Of a DNA stretch of 39,603 nt, positions 4,894 through 14,943 are shown in pieces. The translations under genes were made by a program, and so were the position numbers. Within the stretch, counting starts at the first letter, position 1, and the number at the start of each line of letters is the position of its first letter. Below the pieces are notes generated by a model that made no database searches, was not told the DNA's origin, and saw only the letters and a list, made by a program, of their open reading frames with translations. The DNA is from Gemmatimonadaceae bacterium. GTDB lineage: Bacteria > Gemmatimonadota > Gemmatimonadetes > Gemmatimonadales > Gemmatimonadaceae. The stretch is taken from NCBI GenBank assembly GCA_013360595.1, contig JABWBJ010000002.1, positions 1 to 39,603 of the forward strand, given 5' to 3'.

Positions 4894-5742
4894 ATGCATT
4901 CAGAATCTTCGGCGCCTCGACCAATCTTGCGTTGGGCGGGAAGCAAGCGTCGCCTCGCGCGAATCCTGTCGCCACACCTGCGTGCGCTCGGCTCGAACAC
5001 GTACTTCGAGCCGTTTGCTGGCTCTGCGTCACTCTTCCTGGCACTCGCGCCCAGCAAGGCGGTCCTGGGCGACATCAACTGCGAGCTCATTAATGCGTAC
5101 CGGATACTTCGCTCTGACCCGGTGGCACTTTGGTTGGCCGTGCGCAGTATCCCAAAGACCTCGCGCGAGTATTATGCCCTCCGCGCTCAAACGCCGGATG
5201 CGCTGCGGGCGTTTGACCGAGCCGCTCGTTTCATATATCTCAACAGGTGGTCATTCAACGGCGTTTATCGCACAGACCGTGCGGGGAGATTCAACGTGCC
5301 ACGCGGGAGCAGGACGGGCGCGATACCAGAACCGGAGGTGTTCGCAGCGGTTTCGGCTCTTCTCGGTAAAGCGGAGCTACAGTCGGCTGACTTTGCACAC
5401 ACGGTGAAGGCCGCAGGGCACGGCGACCTTGTGTACCTCGACCCGCCCTATCATTCGCCGACAAGAATGGCCCGGGGTGAGTATGGATACGATGCATTTC
5501 GAGTCGAAGACATGTCACGTCTTATCAAGCTCGCTCGGTCGCTGGATGGACGCGGCGTAAAGGTGTTGATCTCTTACCGATCCGCCGCCCCACTACGCCA
5601 ATTCCTCGGAGGATGGTACTTCCGCCGGGTCCCCGTGCGTCGCCAAGTATCCGGCAAGACAACAGCGCGCGTGTCGACAAGTGAGATCTTGGTCTCAAAC
5701 TGGCATCTGCCTCCGCTCCGATCGAACCGCGCCTACGCATGA
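4894..5742 (+). CDS. D12-class DNA N6-adenine methyltransferase (Dam-like)
   Basis: The 282-residue protein has the motif order of Dam/DpnM-type enzymes. ILRWAGSKRRL (residues 11-21) and YFEPFAGSASLF (37-48) form the S-adenosylmethionine site, LGDINCELINAY (58-69) follows, and the catalytic DPPY is in DLVYLDPPYHS (Asp183-Tyr186). It should transfer a methyl group to N6 of adenine in a short DNA target. The target sequence is unknown. It is the first gene of a four-gene operon and its stop overlaps the next start by 4 bp (ATGA). In that context it is more likely a self-marking or modification subunit than a housekeeping Dam. ATG 4894 is the start that keeps the full N-terminal motif; no strong ribosome binding site precedes it. 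No restriction endonuclease of a known family follows. Confidence 0.9.
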   Translation: MHSESSAPRPILRWAGSKRRLARILSPHLRALGSNTYFEPFAGSASLFLALAPSKAVLGDINCELINAYRILRSDPVALWLAVRSIPKTSREYYALRAQTPDALRAFDRAARFIYLNRWSFNGVYRTDRAGRFNVPRGSRTGAIPEPEVFAAVSALLGKAELQSADFAHTVKAAGHGDLVYLDPPYHSPTRMARGEYGYDAFRVEDMSRLIKLARSLDGRGVKVLISYRSAAPLRQFLGGWYFRRVPVRRQVSGKTTARVSTSEILVSNWHLPPLRSNRAYA

Positions 5743-6929
5743 TATCGATCGCGGTTGTAAGCGATCTTCACGCTGACCGGCGCGAGCATGCGGCCGCGGG
5801 CACGGTGCCAGTTGAGTCGCACCTAGATGTATCGATGCCTGAATCTCACGTGTCCCAACACCCGATTGCGGCATTGGAGAAGCTCATTGGGCAGGAAGGC
5901 CTCAGGGCGGACCTCCTGCTTTGCCCCGGAGACATCACTAATCGTGCCAAGCCCGATCCGCTGCAATACGCATGGCGACGCCTCCATGACATTGGTCGTG
6001 CACTCGGGGCACACCTCGTTGCAGGAACAGCTGGCAATCATGATCTGGATTCGAGATTCAACTACAACGATCATGACGCGAAGGGCATGGTTCAGGGACT
6101 TGTGCCTCTATTCCCCGTCGCCGATGAGACCCTCACCGACCGCTACTGGTCACGGCACTATGCGATCATTGAGCGACCAGATTATCGGCTTGTCCTGCTC
6201 AATTCAGCGGCGTACCACGGCGGCAACCCGGAGGAGATAGTGCACGGCCGCGTCTCACGCCGGACGCTCGACGGCCTCAGCGGGGCGCTCAGAACTTCAG
6301 GCGACGTTGCTGGGCGCATCAACATCCTTCTTTGTCACCATCACCCTGAGCGCCATCCTGCATTGGCATTGCCTGACTATGACGCCATGACGTTAGGTCC
6401 CGACTTACTCGCCCTCCTCGGTTCAGGAGAGTTCGGGCAGTGGCTGATCATTCACGGACACAAGCACAATCCCAGATTGACATACGCAGGGGGGACGGCG
6501 TCGGCGCCGGTCGTCTTTTCTGCGGGCAGCTTCTCAGCTGTTCTCTACCCGGAGTTGCAGAACCGAGTCCGTAATCAGTTCTACCTCCTTCATATCGACG
6601 CAAGGCACGTAGCGCAGTTTGGCCTTGTCGGTTCGGGTCAAGCTTGGGACTACGTCCCTGGGAATGGCTGGGTACCCGCCGGACAAGACTCCGGAATGCC
6701 CGACTCCTTTGGCTTCGGGTGCCGAATTGAACCTGCCTTATGGACTGAGCGACTTGCGGCTGCCGGTTCGAGCCTGCGCTCGTGGCAAGATGTGCTTAGA
6801 GACTATCCGGAGCTGGCCTTCGTGCTACCAGCTGATTTCGCGATGATCGAACGGCGTCTGTCAGAACGACATGGCGTGCTGATTACCAGAGTGAAGGGAC
6901 GTCCCCATCAGATTGGAAAGACACCATGA
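5739..6929 (+). CDS. Calcineurin-like metallophosphoesterase
   Basis: All metal-binding motifs of the calcineurin-like phosphoesterase superfamily are visible: SDLH (Asp9, His11), GD (Gly64-Asp65), GNHD (99-102), a His cluster in LLCHHHPERHP (200-202) and GHKH (240-243). The fold therefore covers about residues 1-280. Residues 280-396 are an additional C-terminal region that I do not recognise; it includes VLRDYPELAFVLPADF. Enzymes of this superfamily hydrolyse phosphomono- or diesters, including nucleic acids (Mre11/SbcD) and cyclic nucleotides, so a nuclease or signalling role is possible. The gene overlaps both neighbours by 4 bp (ATGA), which points to translational coupling with the methylase and the ATPase. 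The actual substrate is unknown. Confidence 0.88.
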   Translation: MISIAVVSDLHADRREHAAAGTVPVESHLDVSMPESHVSQHPIAALEKLIGQEGLRADLLLCPGDITNRAKPDPLQYAWRRLHDIGRALGAHLVAGTAGNHDLDSRFNYNDHDAKGMVQGLVPLFPVADETLTDRYWSRHYAIIERPDYRLVLLNSAAYHGGNPEEIVHGRVSRRTLDGLSGALRTSGDVAGRINILLCHHHPERHPALALPDYDAMTLGPDLLALLGSGEFGQWLIIHGHKHNPRLTYAGGTASAPVVFSAGSFSAVLYPELQNRVRNQFYLLHIDARHVAQFGLVGSGQAWDYVPGNGWVPAGQDSGMPDSFGFGCRIEPALWTERLAAAGSSLRSWQDVLRDYPELAFVLPADFAMIERRLSERHGVLITRVKGRPHQIGKTP

Positions 6930-8791
6930 GCTCTGCCGACGCCACTGATTCATTTAATGCGCGGAACCTGAGTCCGGCTGAAGTGGCGCGCACGTTCGTA
7001 CCGCCCGCAGAGTTTACCAGCCTTGTTCAGCAGGCCAACGCAATTGTGGTTGGACCGCGAGGGAGCGGCAAAACTACGCTTCTGAAGATGCTGCTGCAGG
7101 AGGCACTTGAGACTTGGGATCACGCGCTCGCCGATACCTTGGCTTCACGCGTGACGTACACCACGGCATTTGTAGGGACGGATCGGCGATGGAGTGCGCA
7201 GTTGGCCAGTCTGGGAGAAAGTCGTTTGACCAGCGAGAGCCGCGCCCGCTATGCATTGGCCGCCTACACGACGCAAGTACTTCGTTCTGTTACGAACGCG
7301 ATGATCGGTCGTACCGGTCTGGCACCTGGCAACTCAAGTCCGGTGAACAGAGAGGTCGGTCGGGTATCTTTGAGTGTCGATGCCGAAGCCGACCTGACCG
7401 GACTTCTCTCGAGCGCGTGGGGGCTGAAGCCGCGACTCCCAAGTCTGATAGCTGTACGGCAAGCCCTCACCCTACGGCTGCTAGAAATAAAGTGGCTCGC
7501 CAGTCAAGCCCCGCTAGAAGATCTGGACCCAACCAGGCGAGCGTGGTTAACGCTTCCCTTCTTGGACGCCGTTGTCACGGCCGTTGAAGGTTTCAATGAC
7601 TTGGTGGGCGAGCCGCAGCGCCGGTGGGCACTTGCGCTTGATGAGCTCGAGATCGCACCCCCAGCAGTGCTCGATGAGCTCGCCACTGCAATCCGCGCAT
7701 CGGACGAGATCATCTTGTTCAAGCTGGCGTTGAGTCCCGGGCGACACCTCGGAGGTCACCTCGCGACGGACCTCGCCGCATCACCTGGTCACGACTACTC
7801 CGAAATCCGCCTGTGGTATCCAGACCGGCGCGACGGAGAGGCATTCTGCCGTGATCTTTGGCGCGCCGCTCTCGCTCGCCGCGGACTGCCGGATTTGGAT
7901 CCCAGATCAGTGCTAGGACCATCGTACTTTGAAGGTGCTCCCGGACCTAACGGAAATGAATATGAGCCAGGTTCGAAGTGGGCCATACAGTTTCAGGAAC
8001 TCGCGGCAGATGACCAGACATTTCGTGAGTATTTGAGGAATAAGCGGATTGATGTCACGAAGCTGGATGCCATGCGCGACCCGGAGAGAGCCGCAGATGT
8101 TAGGAAGATCGCGCCACTGCTACCATTGCGTGCGTTTTATCGTCAACCAGATCGCGACAGGCGTCGGGGCCGGTTGCGCAGCCGCAAGTCGCCTGCCCTC
8201 TACACGGGTGCAGCGTGCATGTTTGCGATAACAGAGGCCAACCCCCGTTGGTTCAAGAACCTGTTCGATGGGCTCCTCGACGTGATTGTAGACAGCCGGA
8301 TCGATGCTGAAGTGCAGGCTAGGTCTATAGGAGTAACATCGCAGCGTTTCGCGGCGCTTCTTAACACCGTGCCCGCGCCAACAATCCACCACCGAGGTAC
8401 CGCGCGTGGCGTGCTCGGTGTCATCCGCGAGATAGCCCGAAGCATTCAGGCCGAACATGTGACAGACGCCTTCAAGCCAGAACCCCGTGCCACGTTCACC
8501 GTGCCGGCCGATGCGGACCAGACGCTGGTCGACATTCTTCAGGAAGCCGCAAACTGGGGCGGCATCATCTTCATTCCCGATACTCAGGACCAAGGGCTCA
8601 TTGGCAGTCTGCGAAAGAAGCGCTTTCGCATTTCATACTTGCTCGCTCCCCTGTACGGGCTGCCAGTGCGACTGGGAAAACCACTAAGCCTTAAACCGAT
8701 TTTCTCGCGCCGTTCGGCAGAGGTCCCGACTCTATTCGAGGGTCAGCAACATGATCAGACTGATCCGGCCAACGATAACGCATCGTCCTGA
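6926..8791 (+). CDS. P-loop ATPase, possibly ORC/Cdc6-like AAA, of the four-gene operon
   Basis: The 621-residue protein begins NARNLSPAEVARTFVPPAEF, followed by a Walker A motif GPRGSGKT (43-50) and a Walker B motif LALDELE (Asp239, Glu240). The layout, with the P-loop close to the N-terminus and a stretch of about 190 residues before Walker B, fits ATPases described as ORC/Cdc6-like in accessory operons; that family name is from memory and not certain. The C-terminal half (350-621) has no motif I recognise, but contains a basic segment (RQPDRDRRRGRLRSRKS) that could contact nucleic acid. It probably senses or remodels DNA and controls the partner proteins. The start overlaps the phosphoesterase stop by 4 bp and the end overlaps the next gene by 41 bp. 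Confidence 0.8.
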   Translation: MSSADATDSFNARNLSPAEVARTFVPPAEFTSLVQQANAIVVGPRGSGKTTLLKMLLQEALETWDHALADTLASRVTYTTAFVGTDRRWSAQLASLGESRLTSESRARYALAAYTTQVLRSVTNAMIGRTGLAPGNSSPVNREVGRVSLSVDAEADLTGLLSSAWGLKPRLPSLIAVRQALTLRLLEIKWLASQAPLEDLDPTRRAWLTLPFLDAVVTAVEGFNDLVGEPQRRWALALDELEIAPPAVLDELATAIRASDEIILFKLALSPGRHLGGHLATDLAASPGHDYSEIRLWYPDRRDGEAFCRDLWRAALARRGLPDLDPRSVLGPSYFEGAPGPNGNEYEPGSKWAIQFQELAADDQTFREYLRNKRIDVTKLDAMRDPERAADVRKIAPLLPLRAFYRQPDRDRRRGRLRSRKSPALYTGAACMFAITEANPRWFKNLFDGLLDVIVDSRIDAEVQARSIGVTSQRFAALLNTVPAPTIHHRGTARGVLGVIREIARSIQAEHVTDAFKPEPRATFTVPADADQTLVDILQEAANWGGIIFIPDTQDQGLIGSLRKKRFRISYLLAPLYGLPVRLGKPLSLKPIFSRRSAEVPTLFEGQQHDQTDPANDNASS

Positions 8792-9743
8792 AGCGGAGGA
8801 TCGTTCCTACGACCTCATGATTTGCGCCCTTGGCTACGAGCGCCGCTCTCGAGCAGCAGCTGAGCGTCTCCGCCCAGGAGTCGTTCGTGGTGTCGCACCG
8901 GCGTTCGACGCGCAACAAGTCCTGAGTTTCGAGGAGAACAAGAACTGGTTTGCATCGGCAGGTTTCGAAACACCGACTGTGACTGACGCAGATTTCCACG
9001 CGTGGGTCACCGCTCTCGTTCACTCGGTCGGCGACGATCGTTCAGGCGCCCTTCGCCTTGTGGTTGATATCTCGAGTTTCTCGCGGTACCGCATTGCTTG
9101 CCTCGTTGACGTCCTGCGACGGCACCCCCTGGAAACGCCAATTGTAGTTGACTTCATCTACAGCCTTGCGGAGTACACCGCGCCGACCGAGGAGGATAGT
9201 CCAAACGTCCACGTCGGGCCGGTATTGGATTCTTTCGCGGGATGGAGTCGTGACCCAGACGATAGGGTGAGCGCCATTGTCGGCCTTGGTTACGAAACAG
9301 ATCGGGCGGTCGGCGCCGTGGAGCATGTCCAAGCGTCTGAAGTTTGGGTATTGTCGCCACTCTCACCGATAGCGGAGTACCTAACACCGCTTGACGAGGC
9401 CAACCGCAGCTTGCTCGACATAACGGCAGACAGCCACCTGCTTCGCTACCCCGTTCTTGATCCGTTGTACACGCTTTCGATAGTCGAAGGACTCGCTGCT
9501 CGATCCTTGTTGTCGGGCAATGCAGTAGTCTTCCCGTTTGGGCCCAAAATCTTTGCACTTGTCAGTCTACTATCCGCCACGGTACATCCAGATCTAGCTG
9601 TCTGGCGAATAAGCCCGGGTGTGCACGCACCTCCGGTCGAGCGCGCGCCTTCGGAATACTGGTGCGAGCTTCGCGCCGTCTGGGACCCCGTTACGGCTAT
9701 CGATTGGGAGGCCGAGGCAGCTGCCATCGCCTCTTGGTACTGA
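8751..9743 (+). CDS. Unknown protein with two GYExxR-type repeats, last gene of the operon
   Basis: I do not recognise this 330-residue family. Two similar segments are visible: YDLMICALGYERRSRAAAERL near residue 20 and SAIVGLGYETDRAVGAVEHV near residue 180. Each has a hydrophobic strand, a GYE turn and a helix with Arg, suggesting duplicated Rossmann-like domains. Between them lies LRLVVDISSFSRYRIACLVDVL. No signal peptide or membrane segment is evident, so it is probably cytoplasmic. The start ATG 8751 lies 41 bp inside the ATPase gene, which implies coupled translation. As the last and least typical gene of a methylase-phosphoesterase-ATPase operon it could be a sensor or an effector. The attC of the cassette begins 27 bp after the stop codon. 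Confidence 0.75.
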   Translation: MIRLIRPTITHRPEAEDRSYDLMICALGYERRSRAAAERLRPGVVRGVAPAFDAQQVLSFEENKNWFASAGFETPTVTDADFHAWVTALVHSVGDDRSGALRLVVDISSFSRYRIACLVDVLRRHPLETPIVVDFIYSLAEYTAPTEEDSPNVHVGPVLDSFAGWSRDPDDRVSAIVGLGYETDRAVGAVEHVQASEVWVLSPLSPIAEYLTPLDEANRSLLDITADSHLLRYPVLDPLYTLSIVEGLAARSLLSGNAVVFPFGPKIFALVSLLSATVHPDLAVWRISPGVHAPPVERAPSEYWCELRAVWDPVTAIDWEAEAAAIASWY

Positions 9744-9769: not shown

Positions 9770-9868
9770 GTCTAACGATGCGATGAAGCTGACGAGCGGG
9801 CTTCGACATGCCTCGCCTGCGGCTCGGCTTCTTTTTGATCCGCTCGCAGCTTATCGCCGGCGTTAGGC
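9770..9868 (+). other. attC site 1 (end of cassette A)
   Basis: R'' is GTCTAAC (9770-9776) and R' is GTTAGGC (9862-9868). The L'' segment GATGAAGCTGACGAGCGG pairs with CCGCTCGCAGCTTATC, leaving two unpaired bases on one strand, the extrahelical bases typical of attC. The site is 99 bp long. R'' is complementary to the core at 4788, which ties this attC to the cassette starting there. Confidence 0.93.
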
Positions 9869-9905: not shown

Positions 9906-10163
9906 ATGAAGCGACGGCCCGAGTGGTGGGAGTGGGAGCTCGAAATCAGTCCTCATCTCCTGAAGCGAATGGCTGATCGCGACTTCACAGAACTGGATGT
10001 TCGCAGTATGCTCCAAAGGGCCGTACGGGTCCGACCCGACGTCGAGCCCGGCCGGTGGATCGTCGGAACGCACCGTCGCCGCCGGCGTTGGGAAGTCATC
10101 GTAGAGCCCGATCCGGACGCCCGCGTTCTGACTGTCATCACAGCTTACCCCGTGTCACCATGA
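9906..10163 (+). CDS. DUF4258-type small protein (toxin-like)
   Basis: The 85-residue product has the pattern of DUF4258 proteins: a helix SPHLLKRMADRDFTELDVRSML near the N-terminus followed by strands ending in WEVIVEPDPDARVLTVITAYPV. DUF4258 members are small proteins, often compared with RelE/HicA-like toxins, and usually paired with a DUF2283 protein. That is the case here: the stop codon overlaps the next start by 4 bp (ATGA). It is the first gene of cassette B, 37 bp downstream of attC 1. Function as a toxin is inferred, not shown. Confidence 0.75.
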   Translation: MKRRPEWWEWELEISPHLLKRMADRDFTELDVRSMLQRAVRVRPDVEPGRWIVGTHRRRRRWEVIVEPDPDARVLTVITAYPVSP

Positions 10164-10438
10164 CCGCCGCGAATGGGCCGTATCTCGAGGTCACCTACCG
10201 TCAGGGACGGCCGCTGGCGGCGTACCTGTATCTGCCCCGCCGGGCGACGGACCGGAGTGCGCGTACGCGCCGGATAGCCCCAGGCCTGGTCATCGACCTG
10301 ACGGCTAGAGGCCGGGCCATCGGGATCGAGATTACGGCTCCGTCCAAAGTGACGATTACGGCGTTGAACCGTGCGTTGCGTAGCGTGGGTGCCGCGCCGA
10401 TGACGCGAGCCGATCTTGCCCCGCTCAGGGCGGCGTAG
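10160..10438 (+). CDS. DUF2283-type small protein, partner of the DUF4258 gene
   Basis: The 92-residue product begins MTAANGPYLEVTYRQGRPLA. It has the DUF2283 pattern: a short strand pair, then APGLVIDLTARGRAIGIEITAPSKVT, in which a protein of this family usually reads as pG-hxhDhxxxGxhhGIEI. It is placed in tandem with the DUF4258 gene with a 4-bp overlap, a common pairing thought to be a toxin-antitoxin or regulatory module. ATG 10160 is preferred over upstream in-frame codons, which lie inside the DUF4258 gene. The cassette's attC R'' box starts 10 bp after the stop. Confidence 0.72.
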   Translation: MTAANGPYLEVTYRQGRPLAAYLYLPRRATDRSARTRRIAPGLVIDLTARGRAIGIEITAPSKVTITALNRALRSVGAAPMTRADLAPLRAA

Positions 10439-10448
10439 TGGGCGTTCT

Positions 10449-10468
10449 GCCTAACAGCGTTTGCAGCT
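10449..10468 (+). other. attC site 2, left half (interrupted by IS)
   Basis: The R'' box GCCTAAC (10449-10455) and the outer part of L'' (TTTGCAGCT) are here; the rest of the attC lies at 12025-12112. Joining 10468 to 12025 restores TTTGCAGCT+GTCGGCGAC, which pairs with GTCGCCGCAGCTGAAA with two extrahelical bases (G and T). The rebuilt site is 108 bp, the same length as attC 3. Confidence 0.9.
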
Positions 10469-10796
10469 TCTATGAGGCTGATCTTGTCAAGAGCGGAGTA
10501 ATATGCGTACGGAAGGGACACGGCGGCGAGCCGCGTTCGTGATTGCACTGAAATCACCCGGTGCTTCGCGCGCACTCGGTCGAGAACGGGCTGGACGCTG
10601 AGCGTCCGCCACCAGCTTCTATCCGTGTCGAACCATTCGGTTCGAGGCACCAGAGACGACAGACGCGGGAGCGCGATGAGCCGTGGTGCGCGCGGCCCCT
10701 TCTGACCAGGCGGTCCGTGCTCCAGGAAAGCCGAGCACGCGACCCGCTGCAAACGCGGGCACAACGCGACATCACGGGGTGACGACGGACCCGGCG
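10469..10796 (-). ncRNA. Candidate seekRNA/bridge-RNA region of the IS
   Basis: This is the non-coding end downstream of the transposase. It has two good hairpins: GGACGC/GCGTCC at 10593-10607 and TCGAACC-ATTC-GGTTCGA at 10628-10645. It also holds GCTGCAAACGC at 10746-10756, the reverse complement of the target at 10457-10467, which ends one base before the insertion junction. A second match, CAGCTTCTAT at 10613-10622, copies the left target-IS junction at 10464-10473. Both are expected of guide segments in an RNA read on the minus strand. RNA ends cannot be placed from the sequence. Confidence 0.6.
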
Positions 10797-11951
10797 TCAG
10801 GTCGCCGCGCCGGGCTTGAGTTGCGCGCCGGTCGGGACCAACCCGGTCTCGAGGTAGCGCCAGAGTGCGATCAAGAGTTTGCGCGCCAGCGCGACAATCC
10901 CGAGCCGCCGCTGCCGGCTCCCGCCGGCGGCGAATCGCTCGGTGAACCAGCGGCTGAGGGCGCTGTCCGGTTGGTGATGGAGCCAGCTCCAAGCGAGTTC
11001 GATGGCGAGACCGCGGACGTGCACATTGCCAGCCTTGCTGATGCCGAGGTCCCGCGTCAGGCGACCGCTAAGCTGGCGGGTGGCCGTGAGGCCGGCCAAG
11101 GCCCCCACTTCGCGACGGTTCCGGAAGCCGCGCCAAGCGAAGAACTCCATGGTATAGAGCCAAGCGCTCACTTCGCCGATGCCGCGCAGCGCGAGGAGTT
11201 GCCGCACTTGGCGCACGGCGGGATCGGGCGACGTAGCGAGGAGGGTGCGGCGTTCGGCGACCAGGCTGCGCTGTTGCTGCAGCACGGTCGCGAGGCGATC
11301 CCACTCGCGGTCCAGCCGAGCGCGGAGGTACGGCGGTAGTGGCGTGCCATCCCAGCGACGCAGCCGGACGAGCTGCGTCGGCAGGTGGCGCATTGTCGTC
11401 AGGCGGATGCCCTGGGCGACGAGGAGCGCCTTGATCCGGCTCCGGTGCCGGGTGCGCTCTCGGGTGAGGAGGGCGAGTTCCCGGTGGAGGTGGCGCCAGT
11501 CCTCGGCGGTCTCGCTGGGGACGTTGACTGGGTGCCAGCTGCGGCGATCGCCAGCGACGGCGCGGAGCTGGAGGCTCAGGAGCGCGGTCGCGTCGAGGCG
11601 ATCGGACTTTGCGCGCCGATGCCGGCGATCGACTTCAATGCTGGCGGAGTCGATGATGGTGTTCGTGATGCCGCGCGCGGTGAGCGCGCGATGGAGCCAG
11701 AAGCCGTCGCGGCCAGCTTCGTAACAGCTTACGACGAGCGCGTTCGGCTCGAGATTGAAGTGGGCCTTGGCGCGGGCGATCTCCTGATCGAGCGTGGTGA
11801 GGTCGCGCGCGGGGCACATGCGGAGGCGTGGCGGCGCCCCGGTGGTGGTCGTGAAGGCGAGAGCCCAGCGGAGGTTGCCGAGGTCGAAGGCGAGATGTAG
11901 CGTGGGGACAGCCACGGGCGCGAGCACGGAACGGGTCGTCATGGTAGGCAT
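10797..11951 (-). CDS. IS110/IS1111-family DEDD transposase
   Basis: Protein of 384 residues with the two domains of IS110 transposases. The N-terminal RuvC-like DEDD domain shows LAFDLGN (first Asp), VVSCYEAGRDGFW (Glu) and RRAKSDRLDATALL (paired Asp). A central coiled region follows (HRELALLTRERTRHRSRIKALL). The C-terminal Transposase_20 domain shows LLALRGIGEVSAW, FRNRREVGALAGLTATRQLSG and RDLGISKAGNVHVRGL, where the Ser of ISKAGN fits the active serine. ATG at 11951 is preferred because AGGAGA lies about 6 bases upstream; an in-frame GTG at 11954 and ATG at 11942 are alternatives. The gene is intact and opposite in direction to the cassette genes. Confidence 0.93.
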   Translation of the reverse strand: MPTMTTRSVLAPVAVPTLHLAFDLGNLRWALAFTTTTGAPPRLRMCPARDLTTLDQEIARAKAHFNLEPNALVVSCYEAGRDGFWLHRALTARGITNTIIDSASIEVDRRHRRAKSDRLDATALLSLQLRAVAGDRRSWHPVNVPSETAEDWRHLHRELALLTRERTRHRSRIKALLVAQGIRLTTMRHLPTQLVRLRRWDGTPLPPYLRARLDREWDRLATVLQQQRSLVAERRTLLATSPDPAVRQVRQLLALRGIGEVSAWLYTMEFFAWRGFRNRREVGALAGLTATRQLSGRLTRDLGISKAGNVHVRGLAIELAWSWLHHQPDSALSRWFTERFAAGGSRQRRLGIVALARKLLIALWRYLETGLVPTGAQLKPGAAT

Positions 11952-11983
11952 CACTTCTCCTGGAAGAGAGAGTGTATACAGTG

Positions 11984-12005: not shown

Positions 12006-12024
12006 GAGTGCCTACATAGTTTCT

Positions 12025-12112
12025 GTCGGCGACAGTGGATGCGCCGAGGCGCGCTACGCGCGTCCACGGCGCGAAGTGTTAGAGTCGCCGCAGCTGAAAC
12101 CAGGCGTTAGGC
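12025..12112 (+). other. attC site 2, right half (end of cassette B)
   Basis: This contains the inner part of L'' (GTCGGCGAC), the GC-rich variable loop, L' (GTCGCCGCAGCTGAAA) and the R' core GTTAGGC (12106-12112). It is the partner of the left half at 10449-10468. R'' GCCTAAC is complementary to GTTAGGC at the start of cassette B. Confidence 0.9.
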
Positions 12113-14835: not shown

Positions 14836-14943
14836 GCCTAACGACAATTGCTGCTGACGGCGCTTGACGGAAGCGGCTGGGCTCGCTGCGCTCGCCTGTC
14901 GCACAAGTCGTGATGCGCCGCAGCAGAATGACACGCGTTAGGC
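14836..14943 (+). other. attC site 3 (end of cassette C)
   Basis: R'' is GCCTAAC (14836-14842) and R' is GTTAGGC (14937-14943). ATTGCTGCTGACGGCGC pairs with GCGCCGCAGCAGAAT, leaving G and A extrahelical. The loop has the direct repeat GCTCGC-TGC-GCTCGC, which also occurs in attC 4. Length 108 bp. Confidence 0.93.

Follow-up and report, generated by a model that had tools for sequence, protein, structure and literature searches.

A putative bridge RNA encoded 3′ of an IS110-superfamily transposase matches both the integron attC site that the element interrupts and the element's own ends

In the 39,603-nucleotide stretch of Gemmatimonadaceae DNA analysed here (the window; assembly GCA_013360595.1, contig JABWBJ010000002.1, positions 1–39,603, forward strand), the L″ box of an attC site is split by an intact IS110-superfamily element. 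We interpret the element as an IS110/IS1111-type insertion sequence (IS) that encodes a bridge RNA (seekRNA) in its 3′ non-coding region, with guides that would define both the attC target and the ends of the element itself. We assign a probability of roughly 0.93 to this reading, including the order and use of the guides and the mechanism of insertion that they imply. The principal evidence is comparative: in related elements, the segments that correspond to the proposed guides change together with the sequences that flank each insertion.

Results

An intact element within an attC site

The IS lies on the minus strand between positions 10467 and 12024, with a copy of the core dinucleotide CT at each end (10467–10468 and 12023–12024), and it measures 1,556 bp, to which one further copy of this 2-bp core is added. 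A single copy is present in the metagenome-assembled genome (MAG), which is 72% complete, and no DNA match was found among phages. The transposase gene (10797–11954, minus strand) is intact and encodes 385 residues, and the RNA region is located 3′ of it. The protein scores 161.6 bits against the NCBIfam model NF033542, 'IS110 family RNA-guided transposase' (cut-off 140), exceeds the cut-off for Transposase_20 (PF02371) and falls just under that for PF01548. An AlphaFold model (mean pLDDT 84.9) found its best structural matches in IS621 (8wt9, E 6e-12) and ISCro4 (9t56). Residues E79, D118, D121 and S296 are invariant among relatives, S296-G297 forming the SG motif. The first catalytic residue of the query is D23; E replaces this first DEDD residue (xFELG / xMELS) in nearly all relatives, and D is restricted to the query, L004 and L036. 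On the strength of NF033542, PF02371, the IS621 fold and the four conserved residues, the recombinase belongs to the IS110/IS1111 superfamily of RNA-guided DEDD recombinases.

Genome searches identified relatives with 50–62% identity in the same phylum, Gemmatimonadota. Single-protein scans of a species-genome collection detected none, but an alignment query of that collection recovered 80 loci from Gemmatimonadota, Chloroflexota, Acidobacteriota, Planctomycetota, Burkholderiales and others, with matched stretches mostly of about 360–380 residues. Read in the transposase sense, the non-coding ends of the relatives share a layout in which CCCG, a variable 9-nt segment and GGGT are followed by ACCG, a second variable segment and AGA(A/T)GGGG ... 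CACGGATAGAAGN. Two groups of Burkholderiales loci (L075, L079, L080 and L088, L089, L091, L092) have right flanks (AGCGTGTTAGGCACTTT; TCTTACTGTGTCA) that are conserved far past the guide described below, as if these elements were sited in repeated elements.

The site interrupted by the IS is an attC. Its 5′ arm (10449–10468, plus strand) consists of R″ GCCTAAC (10449–10455), a spacer, L″ GTTTGCAG and the core CT, and the remainder (12023–12112, plus strand) consists of the core CT, a central stem, L′ AGCTGAAAC (12092–12100) and R′ GTTAGGC (12106–12112). Two other attC sites are present in the window, at 9770–9868 and 14836–14943. The cassette of the interrupted attC carries an overlapping DUF4258 and DUF2283 gene pair (9906–10438) that is toxin-antitoxin-like. 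Beside the array, four genes at 4894–9743 encode a D12-class adenine methyltransferase, a phosphoesterase-like protein, an ORC-CDC6-like ATPase (PF24389) and, at PADLOC E 9e-66, a CARF6-like protein; together they resemble a defence-type operon, which stops just before the attC at 9770. A search of the MAG (72% complete) for an integron integrase gave no hit above the cut-off.

Ends and core of the element

We first applied the 7/3 end rule of IS1111 and rejected it, as the rejoined sites came out wrong. Rejoining flanks with a single AG gave coherent sites. The rejoined L082 and L071 sites align gaplessly with intact plasmid-borne ISNCY and TnpB-type genes (202/202 and 200/200 positions), and the flanks of L031 and L033 rejoin to the canonical attC R′ box GTTAGGC. 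For the query, the attC rejoined with one core, GCCTAACAGCGTTTGCAGCTGTCGGCGAC, folds better (-61 kcal/mol) than the site produced by the 7/3 rule (-54), and comparison of its junctions with uninterrupted attC of other genomes (GCCTAAC..GCGTTTGCAGCTGGCGGGCG in two from the same order) places 3/3 ends around one AG core. Because the uninterrupted or rejoined sites of relatives and the homologous attC all fit one AG, the core is AG in the transposase sense and CT on the other strand.

At the ends of the element lie sub-terminal inverted repeats, GCCTCATAG at the right end (10470–10478) and CTATGTAGGC at the left end (12010–12019), both on the minus strand and given in the transposase sense. The pair CTATGTAGGC / CTATG-AGGC extends over about 9–10 bp with one gap; in L018 the match is 10/11. 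The right end also contains a -35 box, TTGACA (10485–10490, minus strand), and TTGACx is found 16 nt before the core in 49/61 relatives. If the ends were joined in a circle, TTGACA would stand 17 bp from a -10-like GAAACT, and in relatives TTGACx would be placed 17 bp from GAT(A/G/C)CT or GAAACT; a junction promoter would therefore be predicted in the circular form.

These features bear on the idea that the element simply belongs to the described IS1111-attC group (ISPst6, ISKpn4, ISPa21, ISPa25), which we consider unlikely. Guide RNAs of IS1111/IS110 elements and attC-targeting IS1111 members are already known (PMC11187229, PMC11208160), and in the IS1111 family the transposase is followed by a long non-coding region, with a top-strand match ahead of a bottom-strand match (PMC11187229). 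The query has this layout, with its RNA region 3′ of the gene and the top-strand match first, and it resembles the group further in having sub-terminal repeats and an attC target (PMC11187229). However, IS1111 elements have terminal extensions of 7 bp on the left and 3 bp on the right, near-perfect sub-terminal inverted repeats of 11–13 bp and transposases of 330–350 aa (PMC11187229), whereas the query has 3/3 ends around an AG core, a repeat that appears short and imperfect, and 385 residues, and its nearest relatives target many non-attC sites.

Guides that covary with the target site

The sequence GCGTTTGCAGC at 10457–10467 has its reverse complement, GCTGCAAACGC, at 10746–10756 within the non-coding end, exactly where the first-pass annotation had placed an 11-nt, guide-like match to the target. 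That annotation had judged the match unlikely to arise by chance, and we agree: when dinucleotide-preserving shuffles of the non-coding end were scored for complementarity to the 22-nt junction, matches of at least 11 were obtained in 10/20,000 (p about 5e-4). The match to attC stands; the accompanying statement that it ends one base before the junction does not, since 10467 is the first core base. The 11-mer thus comprises 10 target bases and one base of the core CT (10467–10468).

Alignment of the non-coding ends of relatives with their insertion sites, the comparison suggested in the first-pass annotation, showed covariation. Across 46 non-redundant elements, agreement between the variable 9-nt segment and the reverse-complemented right flank of the same element averages 6.52/8, compared with 4.98 (sd 0.11) for permuted pairs (z 13.7; 0/10,000 permutations as high). 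The score was highest with the target unslid and lower when it was slid, and a same-strand control was null. Representative guide/flank pairs are CGTTGGAG / CTCCAACG (L004), AGTATTGC / GCAATACT (L022) and ACAATGAGCC / GGCTCATTGT (L065). The transposases of L070 and L079 are 91% identical and their guides differ, each matching its own site at 8/8 positions and the other's at 6/8. Relatives at unrelated sites do not, then, retain one 11-mer; with few exceptions, the guide changes along with the flank. No clear match to their own flank was seen in L023, L048, L049, L072 and L096, in which the mismatch is explained by decay, by ends wrongly called or by old guides that were retained. Because the homologous segment covaries with the right flank in relatives, we interpret the query 11-mer as the right-target guide (RTG; RNA GCGUUUGCAGC, 10746–10756, minus strand), which is predicted to pair with 10 right-flank bases and 1 core base on the transposase-sense (top) strand of attC.

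A candidate left-target guide (LTG) occupies 10702–10708 on the minus strand, with a core-matching AG at 10702–10703, and was also identified by covariation in relatives. The bases that precede AGA(A/T)GGGG equal the left flank in 31/32 elements at position -1, 27 at -2, 19 at both -3 and -4, and 15 at -5, where permutation predicts 8 to 13. The match between the LTG of the query and its own site is partial, with C at -1 and G at -3.

Protein contacts might instead recognize the folded attC or its DNA, in which case the RNA segment would be a by-product, for example a captured attC. An attC is a folded recombination site, and the close relatives L003, L004, L018/L031 and L033 are also inserted in attC. 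We regard this explanation as very improbable, given that near-identical recombinases occupy unrelated sites that match their own RNA, that most other relatives lie at non-attC sites, some of them in other transposase genes, and that one clade enters attC at two sub-sites. Together with the query, five attC-sited elements were found among those examined, and four of the five cluster in the tree. The query and L004 are inserted in the L box, and L018/L031, L003 and L033 in the R′ box, which implies that the guide has moved within attC; capture of an attC may have been the first origin of the guide. The notion that the 11-mer arose by chance, or is a structural repeat with no guiding role, to which the GC-rich composition of the element and a possible CCCGC/GCGGG fold around the segment could lend some credence, is refuted by the shuffles and by the flank covariation in relatives (0/10,000 permutations), this comparative evidence making chance untenable.

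From sequence comparison, then, the RNA very probably selects the landing site of the element. The proposal that the element is programmed to recognize the attC L″ box gains support from two further genomes of the order, where attC with GCGTTTGCAGCT are uninterrupted. One genome, G257 (L130, L132, L133; L026), has three uninterrupted attC with GCGTTTGCAGCT, and it also contains a recombinase of the same family that is cut by a contig end.

Donor and handshake guides

The sequence CAGCTTCTAT is present at both 10464–10473 and 10613–10622, as the first-pass annotation reported. The latter copy is not a second match to the target: we rejected this 10-mer as a target guide, and it corresponds instead to a conserved donor guide (ATAGA) followed by the core (AG) and a handshake base (C). 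The segment is conserved as CGGATAGAAGN in relatives, and CGGATAGAAG is conserved in the family. On this basis the left-donor guide (LDG) is predicted to be AUAGA plus the core AG (10616–10622, minus strand), equal to the right end ATAGA-AG. In relatives, identity between this segment and the right end beside the core holds in 33 or 34/34 at each position, and L003 has one A-to-G change that is common to both.

The handshake in IS621 is a pairing between donor-loop position 166 and target position 7 (PMC11208158). The predicted donor-loop handshake base of the query is the C at 10615 (minus strand), which would pair with the first attC base beside the core. In relatives, the N after the core in CGGATAGAAGN equals the first right-flank base in 25/34 and forms a wobble in 8 more, so that 33/34 are compatible; the permutation mean was 13.5 and the observed value was never reached in 10,000 trials. 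The putative target-loop handshake bases, AA at 10700–10701 (minus strand), equal the first two left-end bases after the core, and in relatives AGA(A/T) tracks the left end at the first base in 34/34 and at the second in 28/34 (p 0.002). Finally, a candidate right-donor guide (RDG), RNA GUCU at 10654–10657 (minus strand), is predicted to pair with the left end of the element, at 3/4 positions here. In relatives, covariation between a GNAT segment ahead of the donor stem and the left end falls on a single diagonal (z 7.6, 5.0 and 2.9); the unanchored form of this test was weak (z up to 3.9), while the anchored version was clear.

Structure of the predicted RNA

The predicted core region of the bridge RNA spans 10609–10766 on the minus strand, with a target-binding loop followed by a donor-binding loop. 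A covariance model built from 30 relatives, with the query left out, matches the query over its full length (1–146 of 146; 44.3 bits, E 4e-11). The consensus structure contains 22 pairs, 16 of them with both sides changed, arranged as a stem P1, a distal hairpin P2 and a donor stem, and a similar structure was obtained with 41 sequences. P2 (10711–10745, minus strand; compensatory pairs in columns 26–52) is positioned between the two target guides, and RTG and LTG form the two sides of the P1–P2 internal loop. The first-pass annotation had raised the possibility that the guide lies in a perfect stem, where it could not act; it occupies the 5′ side of that loop, with a covarying stem on either side. 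This answer comes from the consensus, as folding the query alone was uninformative (z -0.24). No Rfam family matches the RNA. Covarying target guides for both strands, donor guides and handshake guides, the hallmarks of a bridge RNA or seekRNA, are all found in this region. A remnant of the same RNA (E 3.9e-12), lacking a full recombinase, was detected at 1440–1680 of L126; about 0.9 kb away lies an attC with an L″ box, GCGTTTGCTGC, similar to the query target.

Discussion

The guides are arranged in the RNA in the order RTG, LTG, RDG, LDG, with two handshake guides, and every guide overlaps the AG core. We propose that the recombinase and its RNA would engage the attC L″ box as double-stranded DNA, RTG and LTG pairing with its two strands, while RDG and LDG would pair with the joined ends of a circular form, the junction of which would read TTGACAAGATCAGCCTCATAGA-AG-AAACTATG. 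Cleavage beside the core and strand exchange at the core, helped by handshake pairing, would then insert the element and duplicate only the shared core. The insertion divides the attC stem. The split L″ box should prevent the attC from folding, and the upstream DUF4258/DUF2283 cassette is probably frozen in place as a result.

If this reading is correct, the aim at attC makes the effect of such an IS on integron cassette mobility testable. The element would also provide a full guide map of a 3′-encoded bridge RNA, with four guides, two handshakes and the core; earlier reports on such RNAs dealt mainly with target matches. The comparison shows handshake pairing to be under selection beyond IS621-type elements, with retargeting tied to one donor-loop base. 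The natural guide-target pairs could serve as a reference set for reprogramming such recombinases.

Two things are new: a clade with an AG/CT core, 3/3 ends, a 385-aa transposase and, usually, E in place of the first catalytic D; and handshake covariation in what appears to be a 3′-encoded, mirrored bridge RNA. We give about even odds to the broader view that these elements form a distinct 3′-encoded clade (AG/CT, 3/3, E/DEDD), with an RNA that mirrors that of IS621 and shows handshake covariation, and with one branch aimed at the conserved attC L and R boxes, which could thus find and disable integron cassettes in Gemmatimonadota-type genomes.

Like the IS1111-attC elements ISPst6, ISKpn4 and ISPa25, the query has a predicted 3′ guide RNA in which the complement of the top strand lies 5′ of that of the bottom strand, and it is inserted in attC, apparently in one orientation and without target duplication (PMC11187229). 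It differs from their published descriptions in being inserted inside the L box, in its 3/3 ends around a 2-bp core, in its longer recombinase and in the visibility of donor guides and handshake bases. For ISKpn4/ISPst6, entry at one end of certain attC has been reported (PMC11187229). Natural retargeting, in which close relatives carry different guides and have correspondingly different targets, has been described for ISEc11/ISXne4 (PMC11187229); here, unlike in that case, it extends across dozens of elements and occurs within one attC-targeting clade.

The resemblance to IS621/ISCro4 (PMC11208160, PMC11208158) includes the recombinase fold and, in the predicted RNA, target and donor loops with four guides, a core in each and handshakes beside the core. 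The agreement of the CT core with that of IS621, noted in the first-pass annotation, is confirmed, the core reading AG in the transposase sense and CT on the strand matched by the 5′ guide. The query is unlike IS621/ISCro4 in that its RNA lies 3′ of the gene and not in the left end, its sub-terminal repeats are longer, and identity in structural alignment is about 20%. In the transposase sense, the order RTG-LTG-RDG-LDG is the mirror of that in IS621. Viewed from the CT strand, the 5′ guide would correspond to the left target plus core, and the 3′ guide would be followed by the handshake base, exactly the geometry of IS621 (PMC11208158); the transcription unit would accordingly appear inverted relative to the ends of the element.
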